Source: Saprospiraceae bacterium
Lineage (GTDB): Bacteria; Bacteroidota; Bacteroidia; Chitinophagales; Saprospiraceae
DNA: 64,000 nt
Direction of reading: 5' to 3'
Assembly: GCA_020630955.1 (NCBI GenBank)
Contig: JAHDIE010000002.1
Coordinates: 62,001 to 126,000, forward strand
The translations under genes and the position numbers were made by a program. The notes below the pieces were generated by a model that did not search any database, was not told the origin of the DNA, and worked only from the letters and a program-made list of their open reading frames with translations. This document shows, piece by piece, positions 29,943-37,035 of the stretch (position 1 is its first letter; every line of letters begins with the position of its first letter).

Positions 29943-30769
29943 TGGCTTGGTATGAATTTCTAGTTGGCTTCCACGCAGAAAAAAAAGAAATTGTAAATGC
30001 CTTTTTGATATCAATTGGTGCAGATGCAATATTGGATAACGAAGACCATTTTATTTGTTATAAAAATAATCCTGATAACCTAGAAGAATTCTGTGAACAG
30101 ATTAGAGATTTACCTGGAGTGAAAGGAAACATCGATTATAATCTCTGTGAAGAGAAAAATTGGAATGCCGACTGGGAATCTAATTATGAACCAATTTCAA
30201 TTTCTGACATCTGCTCAATTCGTGCAGAGTTTCATCCAAAAAATTTATTAGCACAAAACGAAATAATTATAAGGCCTCAAATGGCTTTTGGAACTGGACA
30301 TCATGCAACAACCTATATGATGATCGAAATGATGAATCAAATTGAACTTTTTGGCAAAGAGGTATTAGATTATGGTTGTGGTACCGGAATACTTGCTGTT
30401 TTTGCAGGCTTGCAAAAGGCGAAATGTGTCACAGGGGTTGATATCGAGGTTCCAGCTATTGAAAATTCTACACTCCATCGAGAACTTAATAATTTAGATC
30501 CAAACTCTATAAAGTTTTTATTGGGAGGGCTTGATGTTATAGCTAATGAAAAATTCGAAGTAATTTTAGCTAATATTAATCGCAAAGTTTTACTTCAAAC
30601 CAAAGATGGAATAAAGCAAGCATTACATCCAAATGGCCTTTTGATTATGTCTGGGATCCTTGAAGAAGATGAGTCTCTTTTGGTAAATCATTATAGCTCT
30701 GATTTTCACTTGATCGAGAAAAAGAAAAAAGAAGACTGGTTGTGTTTTTTATGGAGGGCTAAAAATTAA
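29942..30769 (+). CDS. prmA: Ribosomal protein L11 methyltransferase
   Basis: SAM-dependent methyltransferase for ribosomal protein L11. The 275 residues have the short N-terminal L11-binding domain (1-60) and a Rossmann methyltransferase domain with PQMAFGTGHHATT, motif I DYGCGTGILAVFAG and motif IV ILANINRKVL, all diagnostic of PrmA. Its ATG overlaps the folD TAA as TAATG. The last 11 bases overlap the convergent maf gene, so the two mRNAs are antisense at their ends. Confidence 0.95.
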   Translation: MAWYEFLVGFHAEKKEIVNAFLISIGADAILDNEDHFICYKNNPDNLEEFCEQIRDLPGVKGNIDYNLCEEKNWNADWESNYEPISISDICSIRAEFHPKNLLAQNEIIIRPQMAFGTGHHATTYMMIEMMNQIELFGKEVLDYGCGTGILAVFAGLQKAKCVTGVDIEVPAIENSTLHRELNNLDPNSIKFLLGGLDVIANEKFEVILANINRKVLLQTKDGIKQALHPNGLLIMSGILEEDESLLVNHYSSDFHLIEKKKKEDWLCFLWRAKN

Positions 30770-31325
30770 TTAATTCCTTATATAGCTTTGCTGTTGGTAA
30801 GCCCATGATATTTGTGTAACTTCCATTGATTCTGGATACTTTATTATGGCCAAACCATTCTTGAATTCCATAGGCACCAGCTTTATCAAGTGGTGAAAAA
30901 TTTTCAATATAATATTCAATTTCTTCTTCAGTAATTTTCGAAATCACTACTTCTGAAGAGTCAGAAAAGCTAACAAACTTACTTTGGCTCATCAAGCAAA
31001 CACCAGTGATGACCTTATGTTTGTTTTCTGATAACTTATTAAGCATATCTTTAGCTTCCGCAAAAGTTTTTGGTTTACCTAGAATTTCACCTTGATGTAA
31101 AACAATTGTATCAGCAGTGATTATTATGGTATTTAAGTCTAATGAATCCTTAAATGCATTTGCTTTTTTTTCTGCAATATATTCTGCAACCTTATGGCTG
31201 TCCATGTCAGAGGGAAATGACTCATCTACATCTTTGATTTTAACTTCAAATTTGAAGCCCATTTCTTCTAATAGCCACTTCCTTCTTGGTGATTGTGAGG
31301 CAAGAATAATTTTTTGTGTATTCAT
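30759..31325 (-). CDS. maf: Maf-family nucleoside triphosphate pyrophosphatase
   Basis: Hydrolyses dTTP/UTP or modified nucleotides to monophosphates and keeps them out of nucleic acid. The 188 residues contain the signature start LASQSPRRKWLLEEMG, the catalytic ITADTIVLHQGEILGKP and the DKAGAYGIQEWFG segment. The WFG wording follows the dTTP/UTP pyrophosphatase (YhdE-like) class in general layout. It lies 2 bases after the UbiA-like gene and ends the ferredoxin-iscX-kdsC-ubiA-maf run. Confidence 0.93.
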   Translation of the reverse strand: MNTQKIILASQSPRRKWLLEEMGFKFEVKIKDVDESFPSDMDSHKVAEYIAEKKANAFKDSLDLNTIIITADTIVLHQGEILGKPKTFAEAKDMLNKLSENKHKVITGVCLMSQSKFVSFSDSSEVVISKITEEEIEYYIENFSPLDKAGAYGIQEWFGHNKVSRINGSYTNIMGLPTAKLYKELINF

Positions 31326-31327
31326 CT

Positions 31328-32227
31328 TTATATTGATAGATAAAATAAATAGATTAATCCAAATGCCATCGATACTTTTATTAAAGTTGAGATAAACTTA
31401 AAGTCAGCACTTGTTCTTGCTGAGTAAGTTTTTACAGATACCAAAATAATTAATACTAGAGCAGGTGCAAAAATTAATTTTTGTATGTTAGTATTATTGG
31501 AAGTAAGAATCCATGTTGTACATATTGTTGCTAATGTTAGTAAAAAAAATATAGCAAAAAAGATTGCTTTATCAATCCCAATTTTTATTGGTAGAGTTTC
31601 CATCCCATATTGAGCATCCCCTTTAATATCTTGACAATCTTTTATTATTTCTCTTGCGATGGAGCTAAAAAAAATAAAGGACATAAAGATCAATAAAGTA
31701 ATTTGTTTATCATCAGAAATCATACCTTCTATCTTTGAATGGGTAAACCAAAGAACCCCAATTACCAAACTACTATAAGTTGATACCAATACATTTCCAA
31801 TGAGACCTTTCCCTTTAAAATGCGAAGCATAAATAAAAAGGAATAAAACAGCAATTATATAAATTGTAGAATAATTTAGCTTGTCTAACAATTGGGAGAT
31901 ATAAATAGCTAATCCAAACCCAATTAATGTAACACCAAAATAAGGTAAGATCAATTCGACTTTATTCAACTGCAATTTATTAGGTTTATTGATTAAGTCT
32001 ATATCGTAATCAAAATAATCATTGATTATATATCCACCAATTGTGATCAATAGGGTGCAAACCATGATGGAAAAATAAATAAAAAATTCAATTGAAATTG
32101 GAATTGAAAATAGCTTATTCCAAGAATACAAATATGCAAGCACAATTATTTGTGTGAAGGCAACAATAATAAGATTAATGGGTCTTGAATGATATAGAAG
32201 TTGTCTAAATCGAATCAAAATTACCAA
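31328..32227 (-). CDS. UbiA-family prenyltransferase
   Basis: Integral membrane prenyltransferase of 299 residues with about eight to nine helices. The two Asp-rich pyrophosphate-binding motifs are clear: GYIINDYFDYDIDLINKPNK near residue 65 and REIIKDCQDIKGDAQYG near residue 190. Similar proteins in Bacteroidota are often labelled geranylgeranylglycerol-phosphate geranylgeranyltransferase, but the acceptor is not determined by sequence. The start is TTG and overlaps the KdsC-like gene by 7 bases. It could also serve menaquinone or haem synthesis. Confidence 0.85.
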   Translation of the reverse strand: MVILIRFRQLLYHSRPINLIIVAFTQIIVLAYLYSWNKLFSIPISIEFFIYFSIMVCTLLITIGGYIINDYFDYDIDLINKPNKLQLNKVELILPYFGVTLIGFGLAIYISQLLDKLNYSTIYIIAVLFLFIYASHFKGKGLIGNVLVSTYSSLVIGVLWFTHSKIEGMISDDKQITLLIFMSFIFFSSIAREIIKDCQDIKGDAQYGMETLPIKIGIDKAIFFAIFFLLTLATICTTWILTSNNTNIQKLIFAPALVLIILVSVKTYSARTSADFKFISTLIKVSMAFGLIYLFYLSI

Positions 32228-32715
32228 TTATTACTTATTCGCAATGTGCGCTCTACAACATCTCTAACACAACCATAACCACCTTTATATGGACTAATAT
32301 AATCGCAGATTTCGATGACTTCATTTACTGCATCAAAAGGACAGCTGGATAAAAGCACTTCTTTAAGTACTTCTATGTCGGACAGATCATCCCCCATGTA
32401 AAGGCACTTTTTAGGATTGATGTTAGTAGTTTGACAAAATTTGCGGAACGTATTTAATTTTCGATCAACTCCTGCATAGATATAAGGAATATCTAATCCT
32501 TTTAATCTAGAAGTTACTCCTTTGGAGTTCCCTTTTGTTATGATAGAAATGTTTATTCCTTTCTTAATGGCTTTTTTTATGGCCAAGCCATCTTGGGTAT
32601 TCATTGATCTTAACAATTGACCCTCTTCAGTAATCAGTATATCAGAATTAGTAAATACACCATCTATATCAAATATCAAGGTGTTAATTTGAGCAAATTT
32701 TTTAAAAACATTCAT
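32221..32715 (-). CDS. kdsC: KdsC-like HAD phosphatase (Kdo-8-phosphate phosphatase)
   Basis: Predicted to dephosphorylate Kdo-8-phosphate in lipopolysaccharide core synthesis. The 164 residues form the small cap-less C0 HAD fold: nucleophile/acid pair D16/D18 in IFDIDGVFTNSDI, LRSMNTQDGLAIKK, a Ser/Thr-Lys motif in ITKGNSKGVTSR and the metal Asp in YMGDDLSDIEVL. The DGVFTD-like start and GGYGCVRDVVERTL end are typical of KdsC. Related small HADs include N-acylneuraminate cytidylyltransferase C-domains. waaA elsewhere in the window supports a Kdo role. Confidence 0.87.
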   Translation of the reverse strand: MNVFKKFAQINTLIFDIDGVFTNSDILITEEGQLLRSMNTQDGLAIKKAIKKGINISIITKGNSKGVTSRLKGLDIPYIYAGVDRKLNTFRKFCQTTNINPKKCLYMGDDLSDIEVLKEVLLSSCPFDAVNEVIEICDYISPYKGGYGCVRDVVERTLRISNNW

Positions 32716-32723
32716 TCAACGGC

Positions 32724-32969
32724 TTAATTATTGTCTCTCCATTCATAGACCCATTTTGCTTGAATCTGTTCTAAATGCCCTTCATTGGAATCTTCTTTTT
32801 TTCCAGTAAAAGAATCAATTTCTAAAATCCACTGTAATAAGTCAGTAAATCGGATTCTATAGATTTTATTCTCAGTAAATTCAGCACCAAATCGCTCGTA
32901 TAATTTCATGGCGATATCTTCGTGGTCTTCCCACCCTATAGGTAAGTTGTCAAAATCTTCGAAGGACAT
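32724..32969 (-). CDS. iscX: IscX-like Fe-S assembly protein
   Basis: Small acidic protein of 81 residues resembling IscX (YfhJ), which binds IscS and iron and modulates Fe-S assembly. Matching features are GWEDHEDIAMKLYERFGAE, the RFTDLLQWILEI core (family VRFTDL), SNEGHLEQIQAKWVYEW, and many surface Asp/Glu. It lies between the ferredoxin gene (11-base gap) and the KdsC-like gene (8-base gap). No iscU, hscA or hscB is next to it; the IscS-like gene is about 7.5 kb away on the same strand. Confidence 0.85.
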   Translation of the reverse strand: MSFEDFDNLPIGWEDHEDIAMKLYERFGAEFTENKIYRIRFTDLLQWILEIDSFTGKKEDSNEGHLEQIQAKWVYEWRDNN

Positions 32970-32980
32970 ATTTAAAATTT

Positions 32981-33322
32981 TTAATGTTCGTGACCTATAA
33001 TTTGAGATTGATCAGGTATAGTTACTTCAATTTCTGCATTTTCATCAAGGATTATGCACTGACAGCCTAATCTTGACTCAATTCTTGGGTCTATGGCTCT
33101 ATCAACAAAATCTTCTTCTTTATCTGAAATTTCTTCAATACTTTCTTCACCTTTATCAATGTAAATGTGGCAAGTGCTGCAAGCACAGACCCCACCGCAG
33201 TTATGATTCAAATGTACATCATGGTCTTCTGTGACTTCTAGGATACTTAATCCTGCTTCTACATTTTCTACAACCTTTTCTTTTAGTGTTTTATCCTCGA
33301 ATCTAAAAGTAATTTTTGCCAT
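32981..33322 (-). CDS. fdx: 2Fe-2S ferredoxin, adrenodoxin type
   Basis: Electron-transfer protein of 113 residues. Cluster ligands are C42, C48 and C51 (CGGVCACSTC, spacing C-x5-C-x2-C) and a fourth Cys near residue 90 in RLGCQC. Two extra Cys lie in the binding loops. The DHDVHLNHNCGG and SRLGCQCIILDE contexts match the ISC-type (Fdx) ferredoxins rather than plant-type. It is followed directly by iscX, supporting a role in Fe-S assembly. It is divergent from the AAA+ gene with 117 bases between starts. Confidence 0.92.
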   Translation of the reverse strand: MAKITFRFEDKTLKEKVVENVEAGLSILEVTEDHDVHLNHNCGGVCACSTCHIYIDKGEESIEEISDKEEDFVDRAIDPRIESRLGCQCIILDENAEIEVTIPDQSQIIGHEH

Positions 33323-33439: not shown

Positions 33440-36064
33440 ATGTTGATGGAAGATCAATCGCTACCGAAGTTATATAAGTTTAAAGAACTAAAAGTTTATT
33501 CTTCTACAGAATGGCTAGCTGATAACAAGAAAAAATACCGTCAAGTCTTTGATCGCTATGATACCAGCTATATATATGCTGAATTGGCATTTTTTAACAA
33601 ATCCTTTGACTATGAGTCCTGGGACGTAGATGTGAACCTAAAATGTTTTGAATTAGGAAAGAATCCGAGAGAAATTTGTAACCTTGAATTTACAAAAAAG
33701 GTAAGTAAATACAATAATATTGTTCGTATTCGTGAAGGTTGGGGTAATAAGAGAAAAGGTGCATTCTGGAAAAAAGGGGTTTATTACTGGGAAGCTTGGC
33801 TGGATGGAGAAAAACAAGCAACAAAGTATTTTTATGTTGAAGATGTTGGAGAAAATTCGGCAGATGAAAATTTGTATTTCAAAATAGATTCAATTTCGTT
33901 ATTCGAGGGGCAATATGATGCACCATCGGACTCTGAAAAGGTTTATTACCGAGAATTTTCTGCTCAGGAAACCAAATATATTTATGCTGATATAAGTGTA
34001 GAAAACTTAATTCCTAATGGAACTTGGCATCTTGAAATTTTTGCAAAATTCTATAACGAAGCTCGAGAATTAAAAGGACAAGTAACAAAACTTGTTAAAG
34101 TAAAAGAGAGTGAAAAACTAATTCAAATTTCTGCAGGATGGGGGAGTAATACACCGGGATCTTGGAGGCCAGGAAACTATACTATGGAATTGATATTCTT
34201 AGACAAACTGATTGCAGATGTGAGTTTTGTGATTGGAGAAAACTTTGAAGAGGGTATTGTCCCGATAAGATTACCTCATCAAACTAAGGAAGAAGTAATT
34301 TCATTTGATCCCAATACAGCTTTGAACTTTGATGAGCTAATGGAAAAAATGGACGCCTTAATTGGATTAAAAGACATCAAAGAAAAAGTTAGAGAACATG
34401 CCATGTACTTAAAATTTCTTCAATTAAGGAAGGAAAAAGGAATAGAAAAGGGATCTATTGAAGATATTCATTCTGTATTTATCGGAAATCCAGGCACTGG
34501 TAAAACCACTGTAGCAAAAATGTTAGGGCTACTGTATAAAAAAATGGGATTATTAAGTAAAGGACACGTTCTTGAAGTGGATCGTGTTGATTTAGTAGGT
34601 GAATATATTGGTCAAACTGCTCCGAAAGTCAAAGAAGTAATTAAGAAAGCAAGAGGAGGAGTCTTGTTTATTGACGAAGCATATTCATTGGCAAGAACCA
34701 ATGATGATAGCAAAGATTTTGGAAGAGAAGTAGTGGAGATTTTGGTAAAAGAAATGTCCAATGGGAAAGGTGATCTATCTGTAATAGTTGCTGGTTATCC
34801 AAAAGAAATGAAGCATTTTATTGATTCGAATCCTGGATTAAAATCAAGATTCAAACAGTTTTTTGAATTCAAAGATTACTTACCTCAAGAATTATCCAGG
34901 ATTGCCGCCTTTGCTTGTGAATCAAAAGGAGTTTCCATGGATTTACCGGCAAAAGATTTGTTAGATCAAATTATTATTGAAGCTTTTAGAAATAGAGATA
35001 AATCTTTTGGAAACGCACGTTATGTGTTTGATCTGATAGAAAAGGCTAAAATAAATCTTGGACTACGAATTATGAGTCAAGAAAGCCCTAAAGAATTGGA
35101 AGACAATGTTTTAAGTCTTATCACAACCAGCGATATTGAATTAATCAATGTTGATAAAATAAATGAAAGTCCAAGAATACCAATTGATGAAAAATTATTA
35201 GCAGAAGCAATAAAAGAACTTAACGCGCTCATTGGAATAACACATATAAAAAATCAGATAAATGAACTAATTAGAGTAATTCAGTACCACCACCAAACAG
35301 GTAAAGATGTTCTTAACAATTATTTTCTTCATACTGTATTAATTGGTAATCCAGGAACGGGGAAAACAACTGTAGCTAGAATATTGGCTAAGATATACAA
35401 GGCTCTGGGGTTATTGGAAAGAGGCCATATGATTGAAACTGATCGGCAAGGATTAATCTCTGGATTTGTTGGTCAAACAGCAATTAAAACTGCTGAGAAA
35501 ATTGACGAAGCCATGGGAGGTGTTTTATTTGTTGATGAAGCATATGCTTTGTCAAACTATGGAGGTCTTCAAGGCGATTACGGTAATGAAGCTATCCAAA
35601 CCATTTTAAAGCGAATGGAGGATAGTCGAGGCCAATTTTTTGTTTTTGCAGCGGGTTATCCAAGTAACATGGAAGCTTTTTTAAAGGCAAATCCAGGTTT
35701 AAGTTCTAGATTTGATAAAATATTAAAATTTGAAGACTACTCTCAAGATGAATTATTTGAGATTGCCATAAAAATGATTTCTGATTTTAAGTATCAATTA
35801 AGTGAAGAAGCTAAACCTTTGTTATTCAGCATCTTATCGAATCTTCATATGAAGCGAGATAAGTACTTTGGAAATGCTAGAGATGTTAGAAAAATGATTC
35901 TAGAAATTATCAAGCAACAAAATTTACGAATAGCTCAGCAAAATTCATTGGGTGAAATTGTCACCGAAGAATCGGTAATTCAACTGGTTGATATAAAATC
36001 TTTAGACTTAAAAGCGGAAGAAGATATATTTAATAAATCTAAAATCGGATTTGGAAAAAGATAG
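33440..36064 (+). CDS. Double CbbX/CfxQ-type AAA+ ATPase with two N-terminal beta domains
   Basis: An 874-residue cytosolic protein with no signal peptide. Residues about 10-127 and 148-270 form two similar domains: both have YIYA(E/D) strands (SYIYAELAFFN, KYIYADISVEN), a W-D-V or W-H-L strand, and end with EGWGN / AGWGS, W, Y and W/M-E-L strands. This suggests an internal duplication of a beta-sandwich. Two complete CbbX-like AAA+ modules follow: Walker A GNPGTGKTT near residues 350 and 636, Walker B VLFIDEAYSL and VLFVDEAYAL, and C-terminal lids with FGNARYV / FGNARDV. Family members remodel Rubisco (CbbX) or act in ESX secretion (EccA) and sporulation (SpoVK). The target here is unknown. 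Confidence 0.85.
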   Translation: MLMEDQSLPKLYKFKELKVYSSTEWLADNKKKYRQVFDRYDTSYIYAELAFFNKSFDYESWDVDVNLKCFELGKNPREICNLEFTKKVSKYNNIVRIREGWGNKRKGAFWKKGVYYWEAWLDGEKQATKYFYVEDVGENSADENLYFKIDSISLFEGQYDAPSDSEKVYYREFSAQETKYIYADISVENLIPNGTWHLEIFAKFYNEARELKGQVTKLVKVKESEKLIQISAGWGSNTPGSWRPGNYTMELIFLDKLIADVSFVIGENFEEGIVPIRLPHQTKEEVISFDPNTALNFDELMEKMDALIGLKDIKEKVREHAMYLKFLQLRKEKGIEKGSIEDIHSVFIGNPGTGKTTVAKMLGLLYKKMGLLSKGHVLEVDRVDLVGEYIGQTAPKVKEVIKKARGGVLFIDEAYSLARTNDDSKDFGREVVEILVKEMSNGKGDLSVIVAGYPKEMKHFIDSNPGLKSRFKQFFEFKDYLPQELSRIAAFACESKGVSMDLPAKDLLDQIIIEAFRNRDKSFGNARYVFDLIEKAKINLGLRIMSQESPKELEDNVLSLITTSDIELINVDKINESPRIPIDEKLLAEAIKELNALIGITHIKNQINELIRVIQYHHQTGKDVLNNYFLHTVLIGNPGTGKTTVARILAKIYKALGLLERGHMIETDRQGLISGFVGQTAIKTAEKIDEAMGGVLFVDEAYALSNYGGLQGDYGNEAIQTILKRMEDSRGQFFVFAAGYPSNMEAFLKANPGLSSRFDKILKFEDYSQDELFEIAIKMISDFKYQLSEEAKPLLFSILSNLHMKRDKYFGNARDVRKMILEIIKQQNLRIAQQNSLGEIVTEESVIQLVDIKSLDLKAEEDIFNKSKIGFGKR

Positions 36065-36156: not shown

Positions 36157-37035
36157 ATGAATCAAAACCCTTTAAATTTTAATAATAAAAAGGATAGAAA
36201 CGACTTTTATATTGCTTTGGCTGTTATCTTATTTTTTGGGCTACTTTTTTGGTGGTTATTTACAAGTAAGAATTCAGTGGAAATTCCAGAAATTTCAACG
36301 GCAAAGGTTTTAGAATCTGTAGAGATTTTAGATCACGATAATGATGGCATTCCTGATAAAGAAGACAAATGTCCAGAGATTTATGGTGTCGTCCAAAATC
36401 ATGGATGTCCATTAGATTCTGATGGAGATGGGGTTTACGATGCACAAGACAAATGTCCAAATTTTGCAGGATCTATTGAATTAAACGGATGTCCAGCTGA
36501 TTCCGATGGAGATGGTATTCATGATGGAATTGATAAATGCCCAGAACTTGCAGGTGTACCGCTAAATGATGGTTGCCCTGCTGATTCTGATGGTGATGGT
36601 GTATATGATCATGAAGACAAATGTCCAAACAGATCTGGGCTTGCTTCCAATAATGGTTGTCCGAAAATTAAATTGGATGACACGGAAAGAGAAATCTTGA
36701 AAACTGCTTTAAAAACAGTGGAATTTGAAACAGGAAGCTCTAATTTGAAAGTTTCATCTAAAATTACTTTAGATAAAATCGTTGCCCTAATGACAAAATA
36801 TCCAGCTTATAAGCTCGCTATCAAAGGACACACAGACAACCAAGGGGATCCTTCGAAAAACTTAACTCTATCCAAAGAAAGAGCCAATGCAGCAAAATCT
36901 TACCTCGTGGATAAAGGAATCAGAGCAGCAAGAATAAGTGCCACAGGGTTTGGTGATAAAATTCCAATTTCAACAAATGAAACAGCTGAAGGAAGGCAAG
37001 AAAATAGACGTGTAGAATTCATTCCAAGCTATTAA
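36157..37035 (+). CDS. Membrane-anchored OmpA-domain protein with TSP3 calcium repeats
   Basis: A 292-residue envelope protein. A single N-terminal helix (about 16-35, FYIALAVILFFGLLFWWLFT) without a cleavage site looks like a signal anchor. Four thrombospondin type 3-like repeats follow (about 58-170), each with a D.D.DG..D..D.CP core and a NGCP end, likely to bind calcium. The OmpA peptidoglycan-binding domain covers about 180-292 (LAIKGHTDNQGDPSKN, RANAAKSYLVDKG, GRQENRRVEF). No beta-barrel is present. It would bridge the inner membrane and the wall. It starts 93 bases after the AAA+ gene and is closed by a terminator. Confidence 0.88.
   Translation: MNQNPLNFNNKKDRNDFYIALAVILFFGLLFWWLFTSKNSVEIPEISTAKVLESVEILDHDNDGIPDKEDKCPEIYGVVQNHGCPLDSDGDGVYDAQDKCPNFAGSIELNGCPADSDGDGIHDGIDKCPELAGVPLNDGCPADSDGDGVYDHEDKCPNRSGLASNNGCPKIKLDDTEREILKTALKTVEFETGSSNLKVSSKITLDKIVALMTKYPAYKLAIKGHTDNQGDPSKNLTLSKERANAAKSYLVDKGIRAARISATGFGDKIPISTNETAEGRQENRRVEFIPSY
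36334..36663 (+). repeat. Four tandem TSP3-coding repeats of about 80 bases
   Basis: Inside the OmpA gene, four units of about 27 codons encode the Asp-rich repeats; nucleotide similarity is visible in the GATTCTGATGGAGATGG-type cores. They are coding repeats that could expand or contract by recombination. Confidence 0.75.

Follow-up and report, generated by a model that had tools for sequence, protein, structure and literature searches.

The question that this locus raises is what task is performed by a protein in which two AAA+ ATPase modules resembling CbbX are fused behind a duplicated beta-rich region. The gene concerned occupies positions 33440..36064 of the forward strand in the window, that is, the whole stretch of 64,000 nucleotides analysed here from a Saprospiraceae bacterium (contig JAHDIE010000002.1, assembly GCA_020630955.1), and it codes for a protein of 874 amino acids (aa) in an uninterrupted open reading frame (ORF) that we judge to be real. 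An initial annotation had described this gene as coding for two complete CbbX-type modules preceded by two similar beta-rich domains, and had proposed for it an envelope-related task and membership in an undescribed system. Taking together the domain analyses, the conservation of the motors and the genomic distribution, we consider that the gene probably encodes a cytosolic tandem-motor protein-remodelling chaperone of the SpoVK/CbbX/EccA clade, in which a pair of immunoglobulin-like (Ig-like) domains binds the client.

Domain architecture of the protein

Examination of the protein using Pfam identified two AAA and two AAA_lid_6 domains and no match in residues 1-293. Together with our own profiles and the motifs, these matches place module 1 with its lid at residues 298-559 (34331..35116) and module 2 with its lid at residues 583-836 (35186..35947). 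The N-terminal part is made of two domains, at residues 11-136 (33470..33847) and 146-267 (33875..34240), delimited by our own profiles, the AlphaFold model and their homology to each other. This homology was apparent in BLASTP within the protein (E 9e-8, 29% over 94 aa) and in the profile-profile comparison, for which 56 sequences were aligned (E 8.3e-18, probability 99%, 121 columns), a comparison in which the unrelated pair formed by domain 1 and AAA+ module 1 gave an E of 0.52. Both domains contain the landmarks YIYA (residues 44-47 and 180-183), W (61 and 196) and GWG (100-102 and 233-235), and W61, W101, W110, W234 and W242 are each conserved in at least 95% of the 56 full-length sequences. 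The initial annotation was therefore correct as regards the two complete modules, the two similar beta-rich domains and their shared landmarks.

Modelling of residues 1-287 with AlphaFold2 (22 aligned sequences) yielded two beta sandwiches, each with some eight strands, and a mean predicted local distance difference test (pLDDT) value of 87.7 and a predicted template modelling (pTM) score of 0.82. The pair had no match in Pfam (up to E 1), PHROGs or PADLOC and no specific match in the viral structure library, and comparison with the sequences in PDB gave a best E of 0.17 in phmmer and no profile match up to E 10. The best Foldseek match was the biofilm scaffold RbmA (E 8.2e-9), but with a template modelling score of only 0.29 over the pair. 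In VIA-align the best structures fell within 1 Z unit of each other, including residues 253-365 of AlkC (Z 10.9, root-mean-square deviation (rmsd) 3.2 over 108), GH2 enzymes (up to Z 10.6) and the carbohydrate-binding domain of Wzt (Z 10.4, rmsd 3.1 over 109). Because these near-equal scores belong to Ig-like folds of unrelated function, we regard the pair as an Ig-like tandem whose fold by itself indicates no function. As to whether these domains belong to a characterised family, the structure prediction and profile searches thus provided two confidently modelled sandwiches and no function-specific match. One relative (L051:7968-10740) encodes the Ig-like pair in a frame of 321 aa and both motors in an adjoining one of 601 aa, with 1 base between them, due either to a sequencing frameshift or to a natural split.

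Conservation of the AAA+ motors

To follow the conservation of the motors we used the full-length alignment, which comprises 56 central ORFs of 840-940 aa from the 73 loci with a central ORF. The Walker A motif GNPGTGKT (residues 349-356, 34484..34507, in module 1 and residues 636-643, 35345..35368, in module 2), the DE of Walker B, the arginine of NPGLxSRF and that of FGNAR/FGNGR are present in both modules of all 56 sequences. The stretches EYIGQT of module 1 (residues 388-393, 34601..34618), identified by alignment to YIGHT of CbbX, and GFVGQT of module 2 (residues 675-680, 35462..35479), identified in the full-length alignment, are those that we take to be the pore loops. Their aromatic residue is kept in 56/56 sequences in module 1 (48 tyrosines and eight phenylalanines) and in 54/56 in module 2 (34 tyrosines, 19 phenylalanines and one tryptophan), with histidine in the other two. 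Since ATPase and pore-loop residues are intact in both modules, each would be expected, by analogy with CbbX, to hydrolyse ATP and to grip a polypeptide.

Other positions point to the clade to which these motors belong. G452-Y453 and G739-Y740, invariant in the 47 sequences compared, correspond to the GY signature of the SpoVK/CbbX/EccA clade, their placement at sensor 1 being our own reading. N464 and N751 are found in all 56 sequences, as are the arginines six positions after them (R470 and R757); the arginine counted as the clade feature in PMC10659427 may be either that at +4 or that at +6. The arginines R527 (FGNAR) and R814 (FGN[AG]R), likewise present in 56/56, indicate that the second arginine finger or sensor 2 is kept, its identification as sensor 2 being our own reading of the motif. 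In the full-length model two helices (residues 297-306 and 311-332) lie upstream of the first Walker A. Hydropathy averaged over 19 residues reaches a maximum of 1.38 in the protein and is below 0 wherever the averaged segment starts in residues 1-59; because there is no strongly hydrophobic stretch, we see no sign of export and read the protein as cytosolic.

Distribution and evolution of the modules

Surveys for the N-terminal pair covered genomes of Bacteroidota and identified it in 142 of the 150 sampled genomes of Saprospiraceae, and in 123 of the 129 of good quality. Such near-universal presence agrees better with a permanent task in the cell than with a mobile system or one for defence. 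In some genomes of the family the two-motor gene is present twice, and the genome of the window has a single copy of the pair, the gene at 33440..36064 being its only strong match to the SpoVK model. At the level of the class, the profile of the pair matched 89 of 395 genomes (52 of 197 genera) with 91 matches, 80 of which are contained in open frames of 864-935 aa, so that the pair travels with the motors, as would be expected if it served them in binding a client. The order of the four domains is hence common, and full-text literature searches returned no study of such a protein among their best-ranked matches.

The search with the full-length protein at E 1e-20 had matches in 35 of the 296 genomes searched in the phylum; five of them belong to the class and lie outside the family, matching by one module, and one of these five has the pair. 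A scan of deposited contigs, which detects close relatives only, yielded 18 relatives (15 Saprospiraceae, one Portibacter, one Bacteroidetes and one Chitinophagales), and among plasmid and phage records none contained as much as 80% of the protein at a single location. A 950-aa frame that contains two CbbX-type modules, and whose N-terminus bears a weak resemblance to domain 2 (E 0.02), was seen at L140:2029-4878, on an unverified human faecal scaffold labelled 'Bacteriophage sp.' that may be bacterial DNA; its modules group with those of L133, a protein with two beta matches and three modules.

Phylogenetic analysis with FastTree of 75 modules from 37 chosen proteins placed module 1 of 17 two-motor proteins in one clade (support 0.99) and module 2 of the same 17 proteins, together with three single-motor forms, in another (support 0.88). 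The separation of these clades indicates that the doubling is older than the lineages compared and that the motors have been retained as distinct units.

Proposed function of the protein

According to PMC10659427, the three characterised members of the SpoVK/CbbX/EccA clade are narrow chaperones for a dedicated target or setting, with no peptidase association, and their variable N-terminal regions indicate interactions that might recruit the substrate. Placing our results into this frame, the protein would be a dedicated, ATP-driven chaperone or unfoldase working without a protease. Its subunits would form a ring, probably hexameric, in which the two AAA+ modules make up two tiers, one above the other. 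At the entrance of this ring the Ig-like pair would bind a specific client or partner, and the pore loops of each tier would then use their aromatic residues to pull on a segment of this client, leading to its activation, disassembly or refolding. We infer the ring, the threading, a role of the N-terminal pair in binding the client, and that there is a single dedicated client. The target-binding adaptor suggested by the initial annotation likewise stands as an inference, consistent with a compact two-domain unit placed before the motors and with what PMC10659427 says on recruiting N-termini.

Several observations weigh against this proposal. Four positions after the conserved asparagine, where CbbX has arginine, the sequences have mostly lysine in module 1 (53 lysines, two arginines and one glutamine) and are mixed in module 2 (30 lysines, 11 serines, 11 arginines, three asparagines and one histidine). 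In the full-length AlphaFold model (pLDDT 84.5, pTM 0.42) the domains are confident and their arrangement is not, and with a monomer model of such a score the stacking of the tiers stays a prediction. Chains of p97/Cdc48, a two-tier AAA+ unfoldase, match both modules together at an rmsd of about 16-23 Å. Moreover, the proteins of L053, L134 and L135 consist of the Ig-like pair and module 2 without module 1; because their place in the tree is inside the module-2 clade, grouped at a support of 0.97 with L117 and L122, module 1 was probably lost in them, and their existence means that two tiers are not always needed. Finally, the Ig-like fold is generic and the pair could instead serve dimerisation or ligand binding.

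The presence of the pair in 142/150 genomes of the family, the intact motors and the conserved N-terminal pair lead us to predict that the clade has another dedicated target. We know of no such target in these bacteria, and the Ig-like pair offers a direct bait for the client.

Genomic neighbourhood in the class

The gene next to the two-motor gene, coding for a protein with TSP3 repeats and an OmpA domain (Pfam; 36157..37035, forward strand), was judged to be outside the system, and so was the divergent upstream gene coding for a 2Fe-2S (Fer2) domain (Pfam; 32981..33322, reverse strand). The proximity of the former, noted in the initial annotation, is real, with a distance of 92 bases instead of the 93 given there. 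This OmpA/TSP3 gene was found next door in three of the 19 Saprospiraceae loci, namely the window and its closest relatives, L035 and L036, whereas the divergent ferredoxin gene adjoins in 14/19 and is not a recurrent neighbour in the other loci of the class. It belongs to a divergent cluster of five upstream genes (30759-33322 of the window), which also includes a gene for an 81-aa protein and whose members are each present in 11-14 of the 19 loci. The remaining genes of this cluster resemble those for KdsC, UbiA and Maf.

In the 43 loci from other families of the class, no cluster of neighbours recurred in more than five. Since the ferredoxin cluster is found in the loci of the family and nothing recurs in the others, it looks like inherited gene order. 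We therefore rejected a function for the window gene based on its neighbours, including the envelope task that the initial annotation had deduced from the OmpA gene. The undescribed system that it had expected, taken as a gene cluster around 33440..36064, is not supported either, as the neighbours change from family to family, and the survey of gene neighbours of proteins with the same order of domains offered no explanation. We read the gene as that of a cytosolic protein without a fixed partner gene.

Relatives in other classes

Relatives from outside the class are usually proteins of about 1300 aa with three modules, and some have up to five modules. In 18 of 24 three-motor proteins our profiles match a related beta domain at the E 0.01 threshold, and the profile of this group matches that of domain 1 at E 1.6e-12; the N-terminus of these proteins shows TPR-like repeats, which in L021 match TPR_2 at E 1.3e-5, short of the Pfam cut-off. 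Their gene orders, which follow, are not transferable to the window gene.

At L057:7554-13905 and 11 further loci the multi-motor gene is followed by an ATP-binding cassette (ABC) ATPase gene and then by a PF16949 gene ('putative ATP-binding cassette') for a membrane protein, with Pfam names taken from L057 and L061 and extended to the other loci by homology. Ten of these loci are among the 17 of family f16, where a divergent DUF2807 (GIN) gene also lies upstream in 14/17, and the other two, L061 and L145, belong to family f34, which gives a total of 12 of the 29 out-of-class loci. In three of the seven main loci of f34 (L060, L061 and L062, but not L142-L145) the multi-motor gene is preceded on its own strand by groES-groEL, at a distance of 110-132 bases. 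The multi-motor gene of L061 codes for 764 aa.

Two loci show SiaC-type settings. L160:5893-12066 has, in this order, genes for a receiver-SpoIIE phosphatase, a SiaB-family kinase (106.9 bits, cut-off 85), SiaC (Pfam 125.5, cut-off 24.5), an 85-aa protein and a three-motor protein, and L147:6679-12308 has genes for a SpoIIE phosphatase (SiaA-like, 230.8 bits against a SiaA cut-off of 700), SiaC, a 77-aa protein and a two-motor protein. The SiaC of both loci is above the Pfam cut-off and below the NCBIfam equivalog cut-offs, and the conserved protein of 77-85 aa has no match in Pfam. Within the class, SiaB- and SiaC-like frames were seen about 5 kb from the gene at L126. In three genomes of two out-of-class families (L146:5193-15291, L148:5271-14440 and L149:209-12133) an operon codes for a double zinc ribbon, a serine/threonine kinase, a protein with 4-5 tandem CbbX-type modules, an FHA protein and a PP2C phosphatase, with kinase, FHA and PP2C assigned by Pfam in L146 and L148 and by homology in L149. 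The N-terminus of the 4-5-module protein is zinc-ribbon-like by eye, and the operon looks like an uncharacterised eukaryote-like signalling system.

Alternative explanations

Because EccA, another member of the clade, has its role in type VII secretion (PMC10659427), the protein could by analogy be a cytosolic chaperone for the type IX secretion system, which we consider unlikely. The marker SprA was found in 79/80 genomes with the gene and in 79/80 without it and does not discriminate; being at its ceiling, it gives the test little power, and as most neighbours are unannotated, they might include a secretion gene that escaped notice. An output component of serine/threonine phospho-signalling, suggested by the SiaC-type settings of L160 and L147 and the kinase-FHA-PP2C settings of L146, L148 and L149, is in our opinion improbable. 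These settings amount to five of the 29 out-of-class loci, all five genomes possess a further multi-motor locus, and in none of the five AAA proteins do the beta-domain profiles reach the E 0.01 threshold. In the class, SiaC was found in 39/80 genomes with the pair and in 61/80 without it, the opposite of a link, and it was not found in the genome of the window, in a scan where no control genome matched although the same model matched those 39 and 61 genomes. The SprA and SiaC tests, neither of which supported a link, compared 80 genomes out of the 84 that have the pair and lie outside the family with 80 genomes lacking it, both sets being taken in list order and not matched for kinship. We keep phospho-control as no more than a lead.

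The idea of an envelope-related machine acting with the OmpA/TSP3 protein draws on the same strand, short distance and retention of that gene in the closest relatives, and on the envelope-linked clients of EccA1 and SpoVK (PMC10659427), but the rarity of this neighbour in the family and the lack of a recurrent cluster in the rest of the class make it very improbable. We give equally little credit to the idea that the protein acts with an ABC transporter, as its partner or in its assembly: the ABC ATPase and PF16949-type genes do lie directly downstream on the same strand in two families, with gaps of -41 to 129 bases except for 605 in L158, but they are not beside the two-motor gene in the window nor recurrent neighbours in the 43 class loci, and within f16 they may reflect inherited gene order, as the DUF2807 gene could. 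That the protein is an anti-phage defence ATPase is extremely improbable, since the PADLOC matches of its AAA part to the IetA, TRIP13 and DolB models look like generic AAA resemblance, its N-terminal part has none, and its near-core status in the family would be unlike the patchy occurrence of defence genes.

Going beyond the client-binding chaperone that we favour, one could picture a fourth, as yet unstudied branch beside CbbX, SpoVK and EccA, in which a two-tier protein-remodelling motor near-core in Saprospiraceae holds one dedicated essential or envelope enzyme by its duplicated Ig-like pair, while the wider family, with TPR-like, Ig-like or zinc-ribbon N-termini and one to five motors, has been repeatedly placed under serine/threonine phosphorylation control via SiaC-type and kinase-FHA-PP2C operons. 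This is a speculative picture, which we think has a small chance of being right.

Comparison with known AAA+ systems

The nearest solved structure is that of CbbX, the red-type Rubisco activase (PDB 3SYL, 3SYK and 3ZUH), which superimposes on module 1 with Z 27.7 and rmsd 4.7 over 276 aligned residues at 41% identity and matches in sequence at E 6.9e-59. CbbX shares with each module the Walker motifs, the pore loop (YIGHT, here YIGQT) and the lid, but it has a single module and no Ig-like pair. Its equivalog model TIGR02880 requires 459.25 bits, whereas the modules score 231.0 and 193.2 (415.8 summed). The remark in the initial annotation that no Rubisco gene is near extends to the whole genome (95.6% complete), where the RuBisCO large subunit was not found, with 5/14 control genomes matching. 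As for ESX genes, the two neighbours scanned by Pfam are the Fer2 and OmpA proteins, and no search was aimed at such genes.

The model of SpoVK, TIGR02881, gives the top NCBIfam score for both modules (264.8 and 257.4 bits), neither of which alone reaches the cut-off of 422.95; the score of the whole protein (508.6) exceeds it only through the summing of two modules. SpoVK is a MurG chaperone of sporulating Firmicutes, whose N-terminal domain is short, with three strands and a helix, in contrast to the Ig-like pair here (PMC10659427). The EccA equivalog TIGR03922 has a cut-off of 466.65 bits, above the 201.0 and 210.6 of the modules and the 402.5 of their sum, and EccA-like N-termini are TPR or beta-helix according to PMC10659427, the former recalling the TPR-like repeats, below the Pfam cut-off, of our out-of-class relatives. 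Judged from its sequence, the 874-aa protein thus fits the clade uniting SpoVK, CbbX and EccA, yet it would be none of these named families.

In overall plan the protein is reminiscent of p97/Cdc48, where two AAA+ modules, both of them alignable to those here, likewise come after an N-terminal domain, although p97/Cdc48 belongs to another AAA sub-clade (15-18% identity) and has another N-domain. Nor is a single module a firm rule in the clade, contrary to the initial annotation, considering the relatives with up to five modules and the Streptomyces protein WP_326813255.1, which matches both modules in tandem (query residues 301-871) along 1,680 bases of one gene. The N-terminal part of WP_326813255.1 is also beta-rich but annotated as a right-handed beta-helix, not an Ig-like pair, and its gene is in an ESX locus. 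This gene (L162:2309-5653, on a plasmid of Streptomyces scopuliridis) lies two genes from eccCa and adjoins a gene for an S8 family serine peptidase. With tandem modules already present in this beta-helix protein near eccCa, doubling alone is not new; the protein considered here joins an N-terminal pair for which we found no description to known motors, in an architecture that is common and apparently unstudied.

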